From Tepidamorphaceae bacterium (GTDB lineage Bacteria > Pseudomonadota > Alphaproteobacteria > Rhizobiales > JAKSCL01), in assembly GCA_028289445.1 (NCBI GenBank), contig JANQPO010000010.1, forward strand, positions 1-64,000: a stretch of 64,000 nucleotides of DNA, given 5' to 3'. Every line of letters begins with the position of its first letter. The stretch's first letter is position 1. Under the pieces are notes generated by a model. It saw only the letters and a list, made by a program, of their open reading frames with translations. It was not told the origin of the DNA and ran no database searches. The translations under genes were made by a program, and so were the position numbers. Below, one piece after another: positions 78 through 8,103 of the stretch.

Positions 78-221
78 TCCTCTCATTGAACCCGCGTTGC
101 GATATCGCGCAGGCCACACGGCATGGGCGCCAACACGGCTTCGTGTGCACATGTCCGATCACAAATCCGGTCTGGCCACCAGCGCGTAAACGGGTTCAGT
201 AAAGAGCAACGGCCACCGACT

Positions 222-1712
222 TTGATCCAGTCCGACCCTCCATTCACGCCGCAACACGCGCCCGGCGCCGCGACGCCGGTACTCGTGTGGTTCCGCGATG
301 ACTTGCGCCTCGCCGACAATCCGGCGCTGACCGCGGCGGTCGCTTCGAAGCGTCCGGTGATCACCTTATTTTGCTTGGACGAGGAGAGTCCGGATCTGCG
401 CCCTTTGGGCGGCGCAACGCGCTGGTGGCTGCACGAAAGTCTGGCAATGCTTGACCGAAGCCTTGAGCAATGTGGCGGCCGGCTGGTTCTACGACGCGGC
501 GTCGCCCATCAGGTCATCGACGACATTGTCGCCGAAACGGGCTGCGGTGCCGTTTATTGGAACCGCCGCTATTGCGCTGGCGGCCGGGCCATGGATGCCG
601 GCATCAAGGCGTCACTGAACGACCGCGGCATTGACGCGCAGTCCTTCAACGCGGCGCTGTTATTCGAACCGTGGGAGGTTGCCAGCAAGGCCGGGACGCC
701 GTTGCGGGTCTTCACTCCGTTCTGGCGCGCGGCTTGCGCGAATGGTGCGCCTGCAACGCCCGGTGCCCCGCCAGAAGCTATCGCGGGCTATGAAGGGTGT
801 ATCGCAAGCGATCGGCTGGCGGATTGGGCGCTCAGGCCGACCGCGCCCGACTGGTCGACAGGGCTAGCTGAGGTTTGGGAGCCAGGGGAGCACGGTGCGC
901 GAACTCGACTAGAGGAGTTTGTGGACTCCGTCCTGCCGGGCTACGCGGAGGCCCGCGACCGACCGGGCACGCGCACCACCTCAATGCTCTCACCGCATCT
1001 GCGGTTCGGCGAAATCTCGCCACGCCAGATCTGGCATACCGCCGAAGCTGCAATGGCAAGGGCTGGTCGGGAGCGGGACCTGGCGAAATTTCAATCCGAA
1101 CTCGGCTGGCGGGAGTTCGCGTATCATCTCTTGTTTCATTGCGACGATCTCAACCAGCACAACATTCAATCGCACTTCGACGCCTTTCCCTGGCGCGAAG
1201 ACGCACATGCACTTAAAGCCTGGCAGGCAGGCCGAACGGGCTATCCGATTGTCGATGCGGGTATGCGCGAATTGTGGGCGACGGGATGGATGCACAACCG
1301 TGTCCGCATGGTGGTCGCGTCCTTCCTCGTCAAACATCTGCTGATTGACTGGCGCGTGGGCGAGGCGTGGTTTTGGGACACGCTTGTCGACGCCGATCCG
1401 GCCAACAATCCGGCAAGCTGGCAGTGGGTTGCCGGGTCCGGCGCCGATGCCGCGCCCTATTTCCGAATCTTCAATCCGGTGCTGCAAGGTCAAAAGTTCG
1501 ACGGCGATGGAACGTATGTTCGCAAGTGGGTGCCTGAAATTGCCGCACTTCCCGATCGCTATATCCACTGTCCGTGGGAGGCCCCCGCCCCTATCCTGGA
1601 TACAGCCGGCGTAACCCTCGGCGGAACCTACCCTGAACCTATCGTCGATCATGGCTTTGCCCGGCGGCGTGCTTTGGACGCTTATGGTACGCTGCGAAAA
1701 GATGCTGCTTAG
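222..1712 (+). CDS. phrB: Deoxyribodipyrimidine photolyase (CPD photolyase / cryptochrome family)
   Basis: This is a light-driven FAD enzyme that repairs cyclobutane pyrimidine dimers. The N-terminal alpha/beta antenna domain opens with VLVWFRDDLRLADNPAL. The C-terminal FAD domain carries WREFAYHLLFH, GYPIVDAGMRELWATGWMHNR and NNPASWQWVAGSGADAAPYF, which are hallmark class I blocks. The protein is about 496 aa from the TTG at 222. An ATG at 123 gives 529 aa, but its extra residues look non-coding. No ATG lies closer to the conserved first strand and no strong ribosome site was found, so the start is uncertain. It heads a cluster with an FAD oxidoreductase, DUF1365, Cfa and an MFS gene, a grouping typical of photo-oxidative stress regulons. 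Confidence 0.93.
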   Translation: MIQSDPPFTPQHAPGAATPVLVWFRDDLRLADNPALTAAVASKRPVITLFCLDEESPDLRPLGGATRWWLHESLAMLDRSLEQCGGRLVLRRGVAHQVIDDIVAETGCGAVYWNRRYCAGGRAMDAGIKASLNDRGIDAQSFNAALLFEPWEVASKAGTPLRVFTPFWRAACANGAPATPGAPPEAIAGYEGCIASDRLADWALRPTAPDWSTGLAEVWEPGEHGARTRLEEFVDSVLPGYAEARDRPGTRTTSMLSPHLRFGEISPRQIWHTAEAAMARAGRERDLAKFQSELGWREFAYHLLFHCDDLNQHNIQSHFDAFPWREDAHALKAWQAGRTGYPIVDAGMRELWATGWMHNRVRMVVASFLVKHLLIDWRVGEAWFWDTLVDADPANNPASWQWVAGSGADAAPYFRIFNPVLQGQKFDGDGTYVRKWVPEIAALPDRYIHCPWEAPAPILDTAGVTLGGTYPEPIVDHGFARRRALDAYGTLRKDAA

Positions 1713-1745: not shown

Positions 1746-3050
1746 ATGAAACTCGCTGTCATCGGGACCGGAGTATCCGGGCTATCGGCCGCCTGGGGTC
1801 TGAAGGATGTCGCGGACATCACGTTTTACGACGCACGCACCCGTCCTGGTGGCCACAGCGCAACGGTTGATATCGACTATGACGGCACACCATTGGCGGT
1901 CGATACCGGGTTCATCGTCTACAACACGCTGAACTATCCAAACCTCACCGCGTTCTTCGATGCGCTTGAGATTGCGACCGAGCCAAGCGCGATGAGCTTT
2001 TCAGTCTCGACCGATGGCCGGCGCAGGGAATGGGCGAGCGCATCGCTTCGCTCCGTTTTCGCGTCGAAGCGCAACATGGTTTCTCCGACATTCATATGGA
2101 TGCTTCGCGAAATTCTGCGCTTCAACGAAAAGTCCAGGCACGATCACGCGAACGGCTATGTCGGAGACGTAACGCTCGGCGACTACCTGAGCCGCAATCG
2201 GTTCTCGCGGCGATTTGCGACGGACTACCTTCTCCCCATGGGCGCAGCCATCTGGTCGACGCCGCGCGACGAGGTCCTGGCCTTTCCCGCAGAGACTTTC
2301 ATCTCGTTTTTCGTCAATCACCGTCTTGTGCATTGGACGCAGCCGCAGTGGCGGACGGTTTCCGGCGGCAGCCGCATCTACGTGGAAAAAACCCTTGCGG
2401 CAATTGGCGGCACGCTCCGCCTTGGCGCCAAGGTGATCCGGCTCGTCCGTCACGAGGATGGTGTCACCGTGGTCGACGAACATGGAGATGAAGACCGCTT
2501 CGATAAGGTCATCGTCGCCGCGCATAGCGATCAGGCCCTCGAAATGCTCGATCGCCCGACCGACGATGAACGTCGAATTCTTGGTGCGATCCGCTACAAG
2601 CCAAACGTTGTCTATCTGCATCGGGATTTGGATCTGATGCCCCGGCGAAAGGCCGTGTGGTCGTCTTGGAACTACATCCAGGAAGCGGCAGCCGGGCCAC
2701 AGAGCGCCGTCACCGTGTCCTATTGGATGAACAGGCTCCAAAACCTCGACCCCGCCCGGCCGGTGTTCGTGACGCTCAACCCAGTTCGACCGCCGCGCGA
2801 CGACCTCACGTTTGGACGCTATGTTTTCGATCATCCGCAGTTCGATCAGAATGCACGCGACGCCCAAAACTGCCTGCCTCGCATCCAGGGCGATGGCAGC
2901 ATTTGGTATTGCGGCGCCTATCACGGTAACGGCTTCCACGAAGATGGCTTCAAAGCGGGGATGGCCGTCGCGGAGGCGCTTGGCGGGTCCTATGCGTGGC
3001 GATCGCCGGACGATGGCTCGGCTCAGTGCTTCTTGGAGGCCGCGGAATGA
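1746..3050 (+). CDS. NAD(P)/FAD-dependent amine-oxidase-like oxidoreductase (fatty acid modification, UfaD-like)
   Basis: The 434-aa protein begins with a Rossmann FAD motif (VIGTGVSGLSAAWGL, residues 5-19), followed by GGHS and a flavin amine oxidase fold typical of COG2907. Families of this type sit beside DUF1365 and Cfa genes. In Rhodobacter sphaeroides a homologous set was implicated in furan fatty acid synthesis, with an oxidoreductase desaturating a methylated acyl chain. That substrate assignment is inference from context. AGAGGT lies 5 bases before the ATG. The next gene overlaps its stop (ATGA), which indicates translational coupling. Confidence 0.85.
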   Translation: MKLAVIGTGVSGLSAAWGLKDVADITFYDARTRPGGHSATVDIDYDGTPLAVDTGFIVYNTLNYPNLTAFFDALEIATEPSAMSFSVSTDGRRREWASASLRSVFASKRNMVSPTFIWMLREILRFNEKSRHDHANGYVGDVTLGDYLSRNRFSRRFATDYLLPMGAAIWSTPRDEVLAFPAETFISFFVNHRLVHWTQPQWRTVSGGSRIYVEKTLAAIGGTLRLGAKVIRLVRHEDGVTVVDEHGDEDRFDKVIVAAHSDQALEMLDRPTDDERRILGAIRYKPNVVYLHRDLDLMPRRKAVWSSWNYIQEAAAGPQSAVTVSYWMNRLQNLDPARPVFVTLNPVRPPRDDLTFGRYVFDHPQFDQNARDAQNCLPRIQGDGSIWYCGAYHGNGFHEDGFKAGMAVAEALGGSYAWRSPDDGSAQCFLEAAE

Positions 3051-3868
3051 GGGATGCGTGCAACGCTGAGACCCTGCCTGAAGCTGGTCTTTATGTCGGC
3101 ACGGTTATGCATGCGCGCCTCGTCGCGCCGCTGCATCGTTTTCAATACAAGGTCTTCTCGCTTTTCGTCGATCTTGACCGGTTGGACGCACTCAACGAGA
3201 AGAGCCGACTCTTTTCGGTCGATCGTGCCAATCTTGTTAGCTTTTGCCAGGCGGATCACGGCGACGGCGACGAAACGCCCCTGCGCGCCTTCGTCGACCG
3301 GCACCTGGCCGAGGCGGGCGTGGCGCGTGCGGATCGCGTGATGCTTTTGGCCTTCCCGCGGATCCTTGGCTACGTCTTCAATCCGCTTTCGATCTACTAT
3401 TGCTACGATCGGGCCGGCGCGATCAGCGCGATGATCTACGAGGTCCGCAACACGTTTGGCGAGAGCCACACTTATGTGGCGCCGGTCCGAGACTGCGAAC
3501 GACGGGGCGGCATCATCAAGCAGGAGCGCAACAAGGTTTTCTTCGTTTCGCCTTTCCTCGACATGAACAAACGCTATCGCTTCCGGGTCCATCCGCCTGG
3601 CGAACAACTGCGTTTTCGGATTTTCGAGACCGATCCGTCCGGCCCGGTTCTGTCCGCGACCCAGGCCGCCGACTGGCGTCCTCTGACGACGGGCAACCTC
3701 GTTGCGTCTCTTCTCGCCATGCCGCTGTCCATGGTGAAGGTCATTGGCGGCATTCACTTCGAAGCGATGAAACTCTGGCTGCGCGGTGCCCGTTATCATC
3801 GGCGCGGCACGCCGCCGGCGCCCGTCAGCTATGAGGATAACTCCGCGCACTCGGAGTTAACCCCTTGA
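3047..3868 (+). CDS. DUF1365 family protein (UfaO-like)
   Basis: The 273-aa protein shows the DUF1365 signature: GTVMHARLVAPLHRFQYKVF near the N-terminus, then FPRILGYVFNPLSIYYCYD, YEVRNTFGESHTY and NKVFFVSPFLDM. The family is almost always encoded between an FAD oxidoreductase and a cyclopropane fatty acid synthase-like methyltransferase, exactly as here. A role in the oxygen-dependent step of furan fatty acid formation has been proposed for Rhodobacter homologues; for this copy it is inference. The chosen ATG overlaps the previous stop by four bases and has GGAGG 7 bases upstream, so an in-frame ATG at 2996 inside the upstream gene is rejected. Confidence 0.85.
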   Translation: MRDACNAETLPEAGLYVGTVMHARLVAPLHRFQYKVFSLFVDLDRLDALNEKSRLFSVDRANLVSFCQADHGDGDETPLRAFVDRHLAEAGVARADRVMLLAFPRILGYVFNPLSIYYCYDRAGAISAMIYEVRNTFGESHTYVAPVRDCERRGGIIKQERNKVFFVSPFLDMNKRYRFRVHPPGEQLRFRIFETDPSGPVLSATQAADWRPLTTGNLVASLLAMPLSMVKVIGGIHFEAMKLWLRGARYHRRGTPPAPVSYEDNSAHSELTP

Positions 3869-3930
3869 CAATGCTCGCCAATTCGGCATCATTCTACGGA
3901 CAGCATGACTTTGCGTGCAGGAGATCCGCA

Positions 3931-5163
3931 ATGACGGGCGGGCAAGCAATTCATGTCGGACCAGGCAATGCTGCGGCCGCTGGCAAGGGGCGTCCGCGTG
4001 CGCTCGCTCTGGCTTTACAGTTCCTCGCACAGATTAAGGTCGGCACGCTAACCGTCGCGATGCCCGATGGCGAACACCTAAGGTTCGGCGGCCAAGAAGC
4101 CGGGCCGGAGGCGCATATCTCGCTGCACAGCCATGATCTGGCGCACCGTGCTCTAACGCGTGGTCAGATCGGCGTTGCCGAATCCTATCTCGCGGGACAC
4201 TGGACGACCCCGGACCTCACCGCATTCATCGAGCTATTTTGCCGTAATCCCGACCTGATCGACGAGCTTTTGGAAGACCGGCCGCTGGTACGCCTCGTCT
4301 ACAATCTCTCGCACTGGCTCAATCGCAACACCAAGCGTGGTTCCAGGCGCAACATCGAGGCGCATTACGATCTCGGCAACACGTTCTATGCGCGTTGGCT
4401 CGATCCTTCGATGACGTATTCGTCCGCCCTGTTCGCTGACAAAACGAATGATCTTGATGCCGCACAGGTCGAAAAATACCGCTCACTTTCGGAGAAGATT
4501 ACGCTTACGCCCGACTGCCATGTCCTGGAGGTTGGCTGCGGCTGGGGCGGTTTCGCCGAGTTCGCGGCAAAGAACGTCGGTGCCCGGGTCACCGGCATTA
4601 CGATCTCGAAGGAACAGCACGATTTCGCCAAGGAGCGTATCTTCAAGGCCGGTCTGGCCGACAAGGTCGACATTCGGCTTGAGGACTATCGCGACACCGA
4701 GGGCACCTATGATCGCATTGCGTCGATCGAGATGTTCGAGGCAGTGGGCGAGAAGTATTGGCCGGCCTATTTCGCGATGCTGCGCGATCGGCTTCGGCCG
4801 GACGGCAAGGCTGGGCTGCAGGTGATCACCATCCAAGATGAGATGTTCGACGTTTATCGCCGCGAACCGGATTTCATTCAAAAGTACATCTTCCCAGGCG
4901 GCATGTTACCCAGTCCCAGTGCGCTTGAGGCCGTTGCCGAAAAGGCTGGCCTGTCGCTCGACCGCGAAAAGATTTTCGGTCTCGATTACGCCCGCACGCT
5001 GGCCATCTGGCGCGATCGCTTCACCGCCGCATGGCCCGATATCAAAGGCCTTGGCTTCGACGAGCGGTTTCGCCGGCTGTGGGAGTTCTATCTGTCCTAC
5101 TGCGAAGCCGGCTTCCGGTCGGGCAATATCGACGTGCGCCAGATCGTCTACGTCCGCAGCTAG
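3931..5163 (+). CDS. cfa: Cyclopropane-fatty-acyl-phospholipid synthase-type SAM methyltransferase
   Basis: The protein is 410 aa. The SAM-binding block VLEVGCGWGGFAEFA lies near residue 196, preceded by HYDLGNTFYARWLDPSMTYSSALF, and QVITIQDEMFD and FPGGMLPS follow. These are characteristic of Cfa enzymes that methylate unsaturated acyl chains in membrane phospholipids. In this context it may be the methyltransferase (UfaM-type) of furan fatty acid synthesis instead of a true cyclopropane synthase. The ATG at 3931 has AGGAG 7 bases upstream. An in-frame ATG at 3865 overlapping the previous stop has no such site, so the start is set at 3931. Confidence 0.9.
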   Translation: MTGGQAIHVGPGNAAAAGKGRPRALALALQFLAQIKVGTLTVAMPDGEHLRFGGQEAGPEAHISLHSHDLAHRALTRGQIGVAESYLAGHWTTPDLTAFIELFCRNPDLIDELLEDRPLVRLVYNLSHWLNRNTKRGSRRNIEAHYDLGNTFYARWLDPSMTYSSALFADKTNDLDAAQVEKYRSLSEKITLTPDCHVLEVGCGWGGFAEFAAKNVGARVTGITISKEQHDFAKERIFKAGLADKVDIRLEDYRDTEGTYDRIASIEMFEAVGEKYWPAYFAMLRDRLRPDGKAGLQVITIQDEMFDVYRREPDFIQKYIFPGGMLPSPSALEAVAEKAGLSLDREKIFGLDYARTLAIWRDRFTAAWPDIKGLGFDERFRRLWEFYLSYCEAGFRSGNIDVRQIVYVRS

Positions 5164-5174
5164 TTTCTCATAAA

Positions 5175-6494
5175 GTGAGTCAAGAAACGCGGCTTACGAC
5201 CGGAAAACTGGTCCTTTATGGCCTTCCGGCACTGCCGCTCGCCATGTTGACGCTGCCGGTCTATGTCTATCTGCCAGCGGTCTATGCGGCGGAGTTTGGT
5301 CTGCCGCTTGCCTCGATCGGTCTTGTCCTTCTCGCGGTGCGCCTCTTCGATGCGGCGAGCGATCCAATCATTGGCTATTGCTCCGACCGCCTGCCGATAC
5401 GCGGCGAGCGCCGCCGCCCTTATCTCATCCTCTCCATTCCGCTGATCGGGATTGCCGCCTGGATGGTTATGCGCCCGCCGACCGATGTCGGGCTCGGTTA
5501 TCTTGCGCTGTGGAGCGCCCTCCTCTCAATTGGCTGGACATTGGCCATCATCCCCTACAATGCCTGGGGTGCCGAACTATCGGGCGACTACAATGAACGC
5601 AGCCGCATCACGGGCACCAGAGAGGCGCTCGTCGTCGCCGGCACGGTGATCGCGACGGCACTTCCGGCCGGGCTGGCCGCTGCGGGTGTTACGGGCAACG
5701 CGGCCGTGCTGTCGACAATTGCGATCATCGTGTGCGTCTCACTCCCCATTCTGGCGGTGATTGCCGTTCTCGCGGTGCCGGAACCGGTCAACTATTCGCG
5801 GACCGTGACCGGTTTCCGAGCCGGTCTGGCGATCATGCGGTCAAACCGTCCGTTCCTTCGCCTGATCGCGGCATTCGGGCTGAACGGCATCGCCAACGGC
5901 CTGCCGGCCAGCCTGTTCCTGTTTTTTGCCGCTGAACGGCTTGCAGCCAGCCAGACCGAACAGGGCCTGTTGCTTCTGACCTATTTCTTCTGCGGCGTTG
6001 CGGCGATCCCGTTCTGGGTGTGGCTTTCCAGGCATTGGGGCAAACATCGAACGTGGTGCGTGGCCATGCTCGCGGCGTGCGGCGCCTTCGTCTGGGTGCC
6101 GCTTCTCGACGCCGGTGATATCGTGCCCTTCCTGGCAATCTGCGTCGTCACGGGTGCCGCGCTTGGCGCCGACTTGACCCTTCCTACCTCCATGCAAGCC
6201 GATGTCATCGATGCCGACACAGCGAAAAGCGGCGAGCAACGATCTGCGATCTATTTCGCGATGTGGAGCATGGTGACGAAGCTCACCTTGGCACTGGCCG
6301 TGGGTGTGGCCCTTCCGACGCTGGCGCTGTTTGGGTTTGAACCGGGATCGGGCACCGCGACCGGCCTTCTGGCGCTTGCTGTCCTCTACAGCCTGGTGCC
6401 CACCGGGTTCAAACTGGCGGCTATCGCGCTCATGTGGCGCTATCCGTTGACGGAAACCGCACAAGCCGAGTTGCGGCATCGGATTGAGGCTTAG
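5175..6494 (+). CDS. MFS transporter, glycoside-pentoside-hexuronide (GPH)-like family
   Basis: This is an inner-membrane protein of about 439 aa with roughly 12 hydrophobic segments. The N-terminus KLVLYGLPALPLAML and the loop RLFDAASDPIIGYCSDR, followed by GERRRPY, match the sodium/melibiose-symporter-like branch. The substrate is unknown. The gene starts 11 bases after cfa, probably at GTG 5175; a longer reading frame from 5031 would run inside cfa. Transporters of this branch occur in the same RpoE-controlled cluster in Rhodobacter. It ends directly against the convergent SDR gene, with the two stop codons adjacent. Confidence 0.85.
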   Translation: MSQETRLTTGKLVLYGLPALPLAMLTLPVYVYLPAVYAAEFGLPLASIGLVLLAVRLFDAASDPIIGYCSDRLPIRGERRRPYLILSIPLIGIAAWMVMRPPTDVGLGYLALWSALLSIGWTLAIIPYNAWGAELSGDYNERSRITGTREALVVAGTVIATALPAGLAAAGVTGNAAVLSTIAIIVCVSLPILAVIAVLAVPEPVNYSRTVTGFRAGLAIMRSNRPFLRLIAAFGLNGIANGLPASLFLFFAAERLAASQTEQGLLLLTYFFCGVAAIPFWVWLSRHWGKHRTWCVAMLAACGAFVWVPLLDAGDIVPFLAICVVTGAALGADLTLPTSMQADVIDADTAKSGEQRSAIYFAMWSMVTKLTLALAVGVALPTLALFGFEPGSGTATGLLALAVLYSLVPTGFKLAAIALMWRYPLTETAQAELRHRIEA

Positions 6495-7253
6495 CTAGCC
6501 CTTGCCCGTTCCGCGCTTGATCAGCGGGAAGTAGAGCCAGTAGGGCAAAAGTCGCAAGAGCTTCAGCATATAGGTGAAACGGCGTGGAAAGGTGATTTCG
6601 AACCGCTCGGCCTTAATACCCTCAACGATACGCTCAGCGGCCGCATCGACCTCCATCAAGAAAGGCATGGGAAACGGGTTCTTGTCGGTTGCTGGCGTGC
6701 GGACAAAGCCTGGATTGATGACACCGACGGAGACACCTTGAGGGTCTAGGTCGAATTTCAAGCTCTCCGCCATATTGATGAGACCGGCCTTCGTCGCGCC
6801 ATAGGCGGCCGATGTCGGCAGGCCGCTATAGCCGGCGACAGACGCCATCAGATAAATCCGGCCGGCTTGCCGCGCGACCATCCGATCGATCAGCGGCGCA
6901 AGCCCGTTGATCGCACCGCCGATATTGACGGCAAAGGACTTTTCAAAGGCTGCGCGATCGAAGGGAACGGCCGAGACAGGCAAGTAAATCCCGGCATTGA
7001 GGATCGCCAACTGGATGGGTCCGAGCGTGTCCTCGATGCGCGTAACCAGGGCGTCCATGTCTTCGGCATCGGTCACATCGCCAGGCATCGCAACAATGCA
7101 GCCTGAACCGCCTGTGACTTTGTTTGCTAGCGCTTCAAGCGGCTCAGCGCCGCGTGCCGTCGCCGCGACGATCCAGCCCTCGTGCGCCAGCCGTTCTGCC
7201 ACAGCTCGGCCGATGCCGGCACTGGCACCGGTGATCCATGCGACCTCGGTCAC
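6495..7253 (-). CDS. Short-chain dehydrogenase/reductase
   Basis: The 252-aa classical SDR has the cofactor motif TGASAGIG at residues 8-15, an NAG motif (LAILNAGIY) and the active-site pair in SAAYGATKAG. It starts at GTG 7253, 28 bases after the ChrR-like gene, so the two probably share a transcript. Substrate cannot be told from sequence. SDR genes are regular members of ChrR/RpoE-linked clusters with Cfa and DUF1365, so a role in lipid modification or detoxification of oxidised lipids is plausible but inferred. Confidence 0.88.
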   Translation of the reverse strand: MTEVAWITGASAGIGRAVAERLAHEGWIVAATARGAEPLEALANKVTGGSGCIVAMPGDVTDAEDMDALVTRIEDTLGPIQLAILNAGIYLPVSAVPFDRAAFEKSFAVNIGGAINGLAPLIDRMVARQAGRIYLMASVAGYSGLPTSAAYGATKAGLINMAESLKFDLDPQGVSVGVINPGFVRTPATDKNPFPMPFLMEVDAAAERIVEGIKAERFEITFPRRFTYMLKLLRLLPYWLYFPLIKRGTGKG

Positions 7254-7281: not shown

Positions 7282-7947
7282 CTAGCGCGGCAGGAAGGGT
7301 TGGATGAAGCGGCCGATCGGTCCGGTCAGGCGCACTGGCGCATCGAGAACGGCAAGACAGATGCAGTCTTCGTCCGGATCGGCGACGGGACGGTGATCGA
7401 CGCTCTCATCGGCAATGGCGATATCGCCACACTCGTAGTGGCCTGTGGCGTCCGTAAATCCACCCTGCAAGATCAATGTCGATTCCGTGCCGTCATGAGT
7501 GTGGGTCGGCATCGCCTGGCCAGCACGAATCCAGAGCAGGCTGACATGCGCGCCGTCGCTGGTCTCAATTTCGAATTCCTTGAGACCCGGCAACCGCGAC
7601 TTCCACTCGATCTCGTCGATGTCCTTGCCCAGAAACTGCCTGAGCGGTAGCGGGAAGAACCCGCCAGCGACCTCATCGATCACCTCTTCAGGCTCTTCCA
7701 GTTCGCGCTTATCGTCTAGGATGCTGGTCAAGATCGCGTCGCGATGCGTGACCGCAATACCCTCGCCGTCTTCCAGCAGGGTCCCGCCGAACGCATCCAT
7801 GGACTGAACGAAGTCCAGATTGTCGTCCGACATGGTCAAATGACTTGCCACAAGCATGGTCGACGCCGGCGACAACGTGCCTGCCGAATAACCCGCAAGC
7901 AGCTCGGTCAATCGGTCCATCGAGGGTTTGTCAGCGATCATGGTCAT
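7282..7947 (-). CDS. ChrR-family cupin protein with degenerate anti-sigma zinc site
   Basis: The 221-aa protein aligns by eye with ChrR, the anti-sigma factor that holds RpoE (SigE) until singlet oxygen appears. The C-terminal cupin is conserved: LLWIRAGQAMPTHTHDGTE supplies His, His and Glu, a later ESVDHRPV supplies the fourth ligand, then DCICLAVLDAP and IQPF. In ChrR the N-terminal domain binds zinc through one early His and HxxxCxxC. Here the second motif reads HLTMSDDN and no early His is visible, so three of four ligands are missing. No rpoE adjoins it. It may be a non-zinc anti-sigma paralogue, a sensor only, or a decayed regulator. Its start has AGGTGAG 11 bases upstream. Confidence 0.85.
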   Translation of the reverse strand: MTMIADKPSMDRLTELLAGYSAGTLSPASTMLVASHLTMSDDNLDFVQSMDAFGGTLLEDGEGIAVTHRDAILTSILDDKRELEEPEEVIDEVAGGFFPLPLRQFLGKDIDEIEWKSRLPGLKEFEIETSDGAHVSLLWIRAGQAMPTHTHDGTESTLILQGGFTDATGHYECGDIAIADESVDHRPVADPDEDCICLAVLDAPVRLTGPIGRFIQPFLPR

Positions 7948-8077: not shown

Positions 8078-8103
8078 ATACGGCTTATGACTGATTTGGA
8101 TCA
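8078..8103 (-). promoter_or_regulatory. Candidate ECF (RpoE/ECF11-like) promoter for the ChrR-like gene
   Basis: On the minus strand TGATCC (8103-8098) is followed after 15 bases by CGTAT (8082-8078). TGATCC is the known -35 core for RpoE-type sigma factors of this class. The -10 match and spacing are judged from memory and are weaker. It points towards the ChrR-like gene with a leader of about 125 bases. It is the only TGATCC in the 258-base intergenic region. Confidence 0.4.

Follow-up and report, generated by a model that had tools for sequence, protein, structure and literature searches.

The window, a stretch of 64,000 nucleotides from the start of a Tepidamorphaceae contig, carries a chrR-like gene together with the genes and features listed in Table 1. 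The open reading frame at 7282–7947 of the minus strand is intact, begins with ATG, ends exactly at these coordinates and encodes 221 amino acids. Its product matched TIGR02451, the curated NCBIfam ChrR model, over residues 15–218 with 172.9 bits (E 7.7e-51; curated cut-off, 124.5 bits). Among solved structures, the nearest was that of R. sphaeroides ChrR in complex with sigma-E (2z2s chain B, E 2e-39), and since this alignment starts at residue 15, it covers both the anti-sigma domain (ASD) and the cupin domain. The N-terminal part aligned with the ChrR ASD and is predicted to form four helices, as would a class I anti-sigma domain (ASDI). The best Foldseek matches of the predicted structure were 2z2s and 2q1z; the model was built from two sequences with a mean pLDDT of 54, and the fold search agrees with ChrR and adds little beyond sequence. 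ChrR ranked first in NCBIfam, PDB and Foldseek, and the stronger match to a cupin family without an ASD, which the earlier note had named as a possible objection, was not found. A genome search revealed no other ChrR family member in this genome. We also observed a second ChrR-cupin-like protein at G000:C8:210095-210700, a 250-aa frame with two tandem Cupin_7 domains that the anti-sigma part of TIGR02451 does not match.

Table 1. Genes and sequence features around chrR in the window
Feature	Position	Strand	Basis
DNA photolyase (phr); true start probably after 123	123..1712	+	PF03441, PF00875
FAD-dependent amine oxidase-like, probable ufaD (RSP1091 type)	1746..3050	+	PF01593; name from domain and gene order, PMC7380195
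DUF1365 protein, probable ufaO (RSP1090 type); true start probably after 2996	2996..3868	+	PF07103; PMC7380195
Cyclopropane-fatty-acid-synthase-like methyltransferase, possible ufaM (RSP2144 type)	3865..5163	+	PF02353
MFS transporter; true start probably after 5031	5031..6494	+	PF13347
Short-chain dehydrogenase (SDR), probably in one operon with chrR, which ends 28 nt upstream	6495..7253	-	PF00106
chrR-like gene, zinc-less ChrR-family anti-sigma factor, 221 aa	7282..7947	-	ORF; TIGR02451, 172.9 bits; 2z2s, E 2e-39
N-terminal ASD, four predicted helices (residues 7-22, 27-37, 44-59, 67-77)	7717..7947	-	Alignment to ChrR; low-confidence model
HLTMSDDN, residues 36-43, in place of HxxxCxxC; His kept, both Cys lost	7819..7842	-	Sequence alignment
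Cupin domain, approximately residues 96-200	7348..7662	-	PF12973, 50.6 bits, residues 109-199
Cupin metal ligands H149, H151, E155, H185 (R. sphaeroides ChrR H141, H143, E147, H177)	7393..7503	-	Invariant in 68/68 aligned
Predicted ECF11 (RpoE) promoter TGATCC-N15-CGTA, 131 nt upstream of the chrR ATG	8079..8103	-	Motif match

The zinc ligands of R. sphaeroides ChrR are His6, His31, Cys35 and Cys38 in the ASD and H141, H143, E147 and H177 in the cupin domain (numbering of PMC6852236). Alignment to this protein revealed that three of the four ASD ligands (His6, Cys35 and Cys38) are lost here, with Ser at position 35 and Asn at position 38, and that the equivalent of His31 is kept as His36. The ZAS signature, an N-terminal His plus HxxxCxxC, was not found: the site reads HLTMSDDN, the ASD contains no Cys, and no His lies near the N-terminus, which confirms the absence of the early His reported previously. 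The accompanying claim that HLTMSDDN replaces HxxxCxxC is correct for both Cys residues and slightly too strong as worded, because the His of the motif is still there. The first Cys of the protein does not occur before residue 173, and the only His residues before residue 134 are those at 36 and 68; therefore, no replacement zinc site is visible. The cupin His-His-Glu-His set is intact, as the earlier note had stated; all four ligands were found by alignment and are shared by every one of the 68 aligned sequences.

The same zinc loss extends beyond one genome, so that chance or a sequencing slip does not explain it. Our sample of the order comprised 61 genomes, mostly one per family, and full-length ChrR relatives were present in 37 of them. 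Fourteen genomes, including the present one, have a chrR that lacks both zinc Cys residues and the N-terminal His and has no rpoE beside it, while the copies directly after rpoE were 22 of the zinc type and one zinc-less (L105). A protein-pattern scan of genome contigs returned one relative only, L017, a zinc-less ChrR encoded directly after rpoE in a publicly available alphaproteobacterial genome bin. A class-wide sample added L160 to the zinc-less unlinked copies and L167, L170, L174 and L177 to the zinc-less copies after rpoE; L178 and L186 had lost one Cys, and L163 and L166 were zinc-type and unlinked. Altogether, six zinc-less chrR genes lie directly downstream of rpoE. Among the copies next to rpoE, L178 and L186 have Cys35 and a Ser at position 38, possibly half-way states of zinc loss, and in the zinc-less L174 and L177 even His31 is gone (Met, Gln).

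In a ChrR tree from which the zinc columns had been left out, the order's zinc-less unlinked proteins formed one clade (14 proteins, support 100/97), which with L160 added comprised 15 proteins from 14 families (98/86). Besides the present genome, 14 others (13 further families and the same family) share the loss in this clade. Parsimony required seven changes for full or partial zinc loss, that is, several further losses, and L105 and L177 each paired with a zinc-type sister (100/97); branch support in the wider-class tree was poor. Relocation and zinc loss are separable, since L163 and L166 are zinc-type yet unlinked. An order of events in which zinc was lost first and the genes were split afterwards is suggested by L017 and was not kept, in view of L163 and L166 and of the poor resolution of the trees around them. 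L163 and L166 belong to other orders of the class; their chrR stands apart from rpoE with its own ECF11 promoter motif, and their rpoE adjoins an ialB-like gene and has no ECF11 motif. Genome G060 possesses, in addition to its zinc-less unlinked chrR (L039), a second, zinc-type chrR (L099, G060:C11:77000-81500) with no rpoE of its own type beside it; an ECF11 promoter precedes this second copy by 194 nt, and SDR and cfa genes are in its vicinity.

The neighbors of chrR are the SDR gene and a cysteine-synthase-like gene, so the reported absence of an adjacent rpoE was borne out, and the usual, non-defining ChrR trait of a gene directly after an ECF11 sigma gene is missing here. The gene is an orphan by position, and not by genome content: the whole-genome search that had been proposed for an rpoE-chrR pair recovered a single ECF11-type RpoE, unlinked, at C1:13103-13666 on a different contig. 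Its best solved relative was R. sphaeroides sigma-E (2q1z_A, E 7.8e-49). One such RpoE, with 45–64% identity to that of the present genome, occurs in every genome of the order with a zinc-less unlinked ChrR. Across the 61 genomes, ChrR and RpoE were both present in 37 and both missing from 24; at the thresholds used, no genome had full-length ChrR alone or RpoE alone. The 14 unlinked RpoEs formed one clade (support 100/99); their genes have a divergent ialB-like gene beside them in all 14 cases, and no anti-sigma gene was seen next to them. The only other ECF sigma gene of the present genome, on contig C14, is directly followed by an anti-sigma-like gene. With one ChrR, one ECF11 RpoE and a second ECF sigma factor that has its own anti-sigma-like neighbor, we infer by elimination that ChrR and RpoE are each other's partner. 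Evolutionary distances of the ChrR ASD and RpoE correlated at 0.47–0.49, compared with 0.11–0.72 for RpoE and control genes, some of which performed as well. The RpoE of the zinc-less clade has Leu for Ile83, Arg for Thr85 and Phe at 176 (R. sphaeroides numbering) in 14/14 unlinked proteins; these may represent shifts of the interface or of DNA contacts.

The SDR gene adjoins chrR in 12 of the 14 genomes of the order with the zinc-less unlinked form (the exceptions are L024 and L039), the SDR/cysK neighborhood is common to 14 of the 15 clade members, and cysK, alaX and sseA occupy the other flank in most of the 14 genomes. Beyond the SDR gene, most genomes have ufaD-like, DUF1365 (ufaO) and cfa/ufaM-like genes and a photolyase gene; the ufa names in the window were assigned by domain and gene order. 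In R. sphaeroides, UfaM, UfaD and UfaO carry out furan fatty acid synthesis (PMC7380195), and ChrR turnover under singlet oxygen needs furan-fatty-acid genes (PMC6852236). The earlier placement of chrR near RpoE target genes is supported by the photolyase gene and probable ufaD, ufaO and ufaM homologues next door and by an ECF11 promoter upstream of the photolyase gene, the first of this cluster, in five relatives. Since an ialB-like gene flanks the joined rpoE-chrR operon in many outgroup genomes and the unlinked rpoE as well, gene order suggests that rpoE stayed in place and that chrR probably relocated; relocation of rpoE itself was rejected on the same ground. By eye, positions 1-76 of the window appear to be a tRNA-Asn gene directly before the photolyase gene at the contig start.

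Promoter motifs were searched as TGATCC-N15/16-CGTA, a pattern first derived from upstream regions and later matched to the published ECF11 consensus of P. syringae, TGATCC-N16-CGTA (PMC5507510); the spacer before the present chrR is 15 nt rather than 16. The motif lies within 200 nt upstream of the zinc-less unlinked chrR in 12 of 14 genomes of the order, and farther upstream in a thirteenth, against a mean of 0.007 expected from shuffled sequences. In contrast, it precedes none of the 14 unlinked rpoE genes, as opposed to 17 of the 24 rpoE genes of joined operons (unlinked vs linked, Fisher p 1.7e-5). This swap of promoter motifs likely creates negative feedback without self-amplification of rpoE, as far as the motifs reflect promoter use. 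The present genome contains 20 sites in all, compared with five for a reversed control pattern, which means that several of them are chance; one lies 31 nt before the start of an rpoH (sigma-32, PRK07500 type), probably the counterpart of RpoHII, and another precedes a DUF3833 gene. Between the tRNA-like stretch and the photolyase gene of the window, where the contig has only just begun, no strict ECF11 motif was found. The pattern TGATCC-N14-20-TAAGA, which we take to be that of R. sphaeroides promoters, was dropped after giving four matches, none of them at chrR, vs one control match.

Our analysis further revealed that the ASD remains as constrained without the zinc ligands as with them. 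Mean pairwise ASD identity was 0.39 in both the zinc-less and the zinc-type group, and the only stretch relaxed in the former was the zinc loop, positions 35-39. Position 41 (Phe46 in the present protein), which lies roughly one turn of the helix beyond the lost Cys38, has a bulky hydrophobic residue in 14/14 zinc-less proteins of the order vs 1/23 of the zinc type, as does position 11 in 14/14 vs 8/23; these counts ignore shared ancestry, the zinc-less clade being one event. This pattern fits hydrophobic packing instead of zinc, comparable to the protein contacts that take the place of zinc in RseA (PMC6852236). The hydrophobic residue at position 41 is absent from L160, L017 and the other linked zinc-less proteins; therefore, position 41 is not a general zinc substitute, and other solutions must exist.

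We consider it likely that the gene encodes a working, zinc-independent ChrR-type anti-sigma factor that acts in trans on RpoE in a split circuit, with the cupin domain as its sensor. The ASD would fold without zinc, and ChrR would most likely sequester the single ECF11 RpoE encoded on another contig; this predicted binding and inhibition is backed indirectly by co-occurrence and the promoter. RpoE may be freed when the cupin metal site, or proteolysis depending on this site, responds to singlet oxygen or related oxidants. The released RpoE would then transcribe chrR from its own ECF11 promoter, together with rpoHII and other targets, and apparently no longer rpoE. As RpoE would drive chrR and apparently not rpoE, the old self-amplifying rpoE-chrR operon would have given way to a split circuit in which the feedback is purely negative. 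Whether the widespread ChrR clade at large has exchanged the zinc clamp for hydrophobic packing while retaining full anti-sigma function, with sensing by the cupin domain alone and an RpoE that induces its inhibitor and not itself, appears to us evenly balanced.

Earlier, two outcomes had been offered: zinc-free binding of the sigma factor, or conversion of the protein to a pure sensor. The constraint on the ASD, the co-inheritance with an ECF11 RpoE and the zinc-less ChrRs in rpoE-chrR operons favor the former over the latter. A free cupin sensor or enzyme that carries an ASD-shaped relic and binds no sigma factor would account for the loss of three of the four zinc ligands and for the separation of chrR from rpoE. 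It would also agree with R. sphaeroides, in which zinc binding by the ASD is required for sigma-E inhibition (PMC6852236), so that zinc-free binding runs against the one well-studied case. However, a relic would not be expected to match zinc-type ChrR in ASD conservation, to co-occur without exception with an RpoE that has no other candidate anti-sigma beside its gene, or to stand under an RpoE promoter motif, and zinc has also been lost from chrR genes that overlap or abut rpoE; we regard this explanation as unlikely. We assign a slightly lower probability still to an ASD that continues to bind metal by means of His36 together with Asp, Asn or Ser as non-standard ligands, in which case zinc control would be altered rather than lost. 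The His is indeed kept in 13 of the 15 clade members, and SDDN stands beside it in the present protein, but it is Tyr in L039 and L160 and Met or Gln in the linked zinc-less L174 and L177, no Cys precedes residue 173, and the zinc-site region of the clade showed neither another conserved His nor a new acidic ligand.

A target other than RpoE, or several targets, might be proposed because chrR is encoded without any sigma factor gene. Co-inheritance specifically with RpoE and the anti-sigma-like neighbor of the other ECF sigma factor make this highly improbable. Finally, a joined rpoE-chrR pair could merely look split through contig breakage or misassembly, given an assembly of 26 contigs. This possibility is practically negligible. 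The chrR gene is located 7 kb into its contig between two syntenic flanks and rpoE 13 kb into another contig, and 13 more genomes of the order, among them G040 with its single contig, show the same split with synteny, which refutes the idea.

The zinc-independent anti-sigma factor favored here bears on the question of whether the zinc of the ChrR ASD acts as a singlet-oxygen sensor or serves only to hold the domain together. A 2019 review described the role of this zinc in the response as unknown (PMC6852236), and work on peptides argued for oxidation of the zinc Cys residues as a possible key event (PMC6432622). The sensing and structural ideas come apart in a natural ChrR that lacks these Cys residues and has an invariant cupin site. 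The split also offers a natural comparison between an autoregulated sigma operon and a circuit in which only negative feedback is left. A relocated ChrR would be overlooked by surveys that search for anti-sigma factors close to sigma genes, for example within 10 genes (PMC7406223). A chrR homologue without a neighboring rpoE was mentioned once, in Rhizobium etli (PMC3818230, section 8), and our literature search, which covered mostly freely accessible papers, found neither a zinc-less ChrR clade nor the split circuit described before. Zinc-free anti-sigma factors as such are not new, since class I groups with both zinc and non-zinc members have been described (PMC7406223).

Among known systems, R. 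sphaeroides ChrR (PDB 2q1z, 2z2s) shares with the present protein the ASD and cupin layout, the four cupin ligands, an ECF11 sigma factor in the genome, an RpoE-type promoter motif and neighbors from the singlet-oxygen regulon. It differs in possessing His6, Cys35 and Cys38 and in forming an operon with rpoE, whereas the chrR described here lies near a photolyase/ufa-like cluster with its own promoter motif, and its rpoE has none. E. coli RseA and M. tuberculosis RskA hold their sigma factors through an ASD without zinc, as the present protein would, and B. subtilis RsiW binds independently of zinc (PMC7406223, PMC6852236). These three are membrane proteins of other groups, unlike the present protein, a predicted soluble member of the ChrR family with a cupin sensor. 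Streptomyces RsrA, of the CHCC-type ZAS, is likewise a soluble class I anti-sigma factor and binds its sigma factor through hydrophobic residues of helices III and IV (PMC4960319); in contrast to the present protein, which has no zinc Cys residues, RsrA senses via its own.
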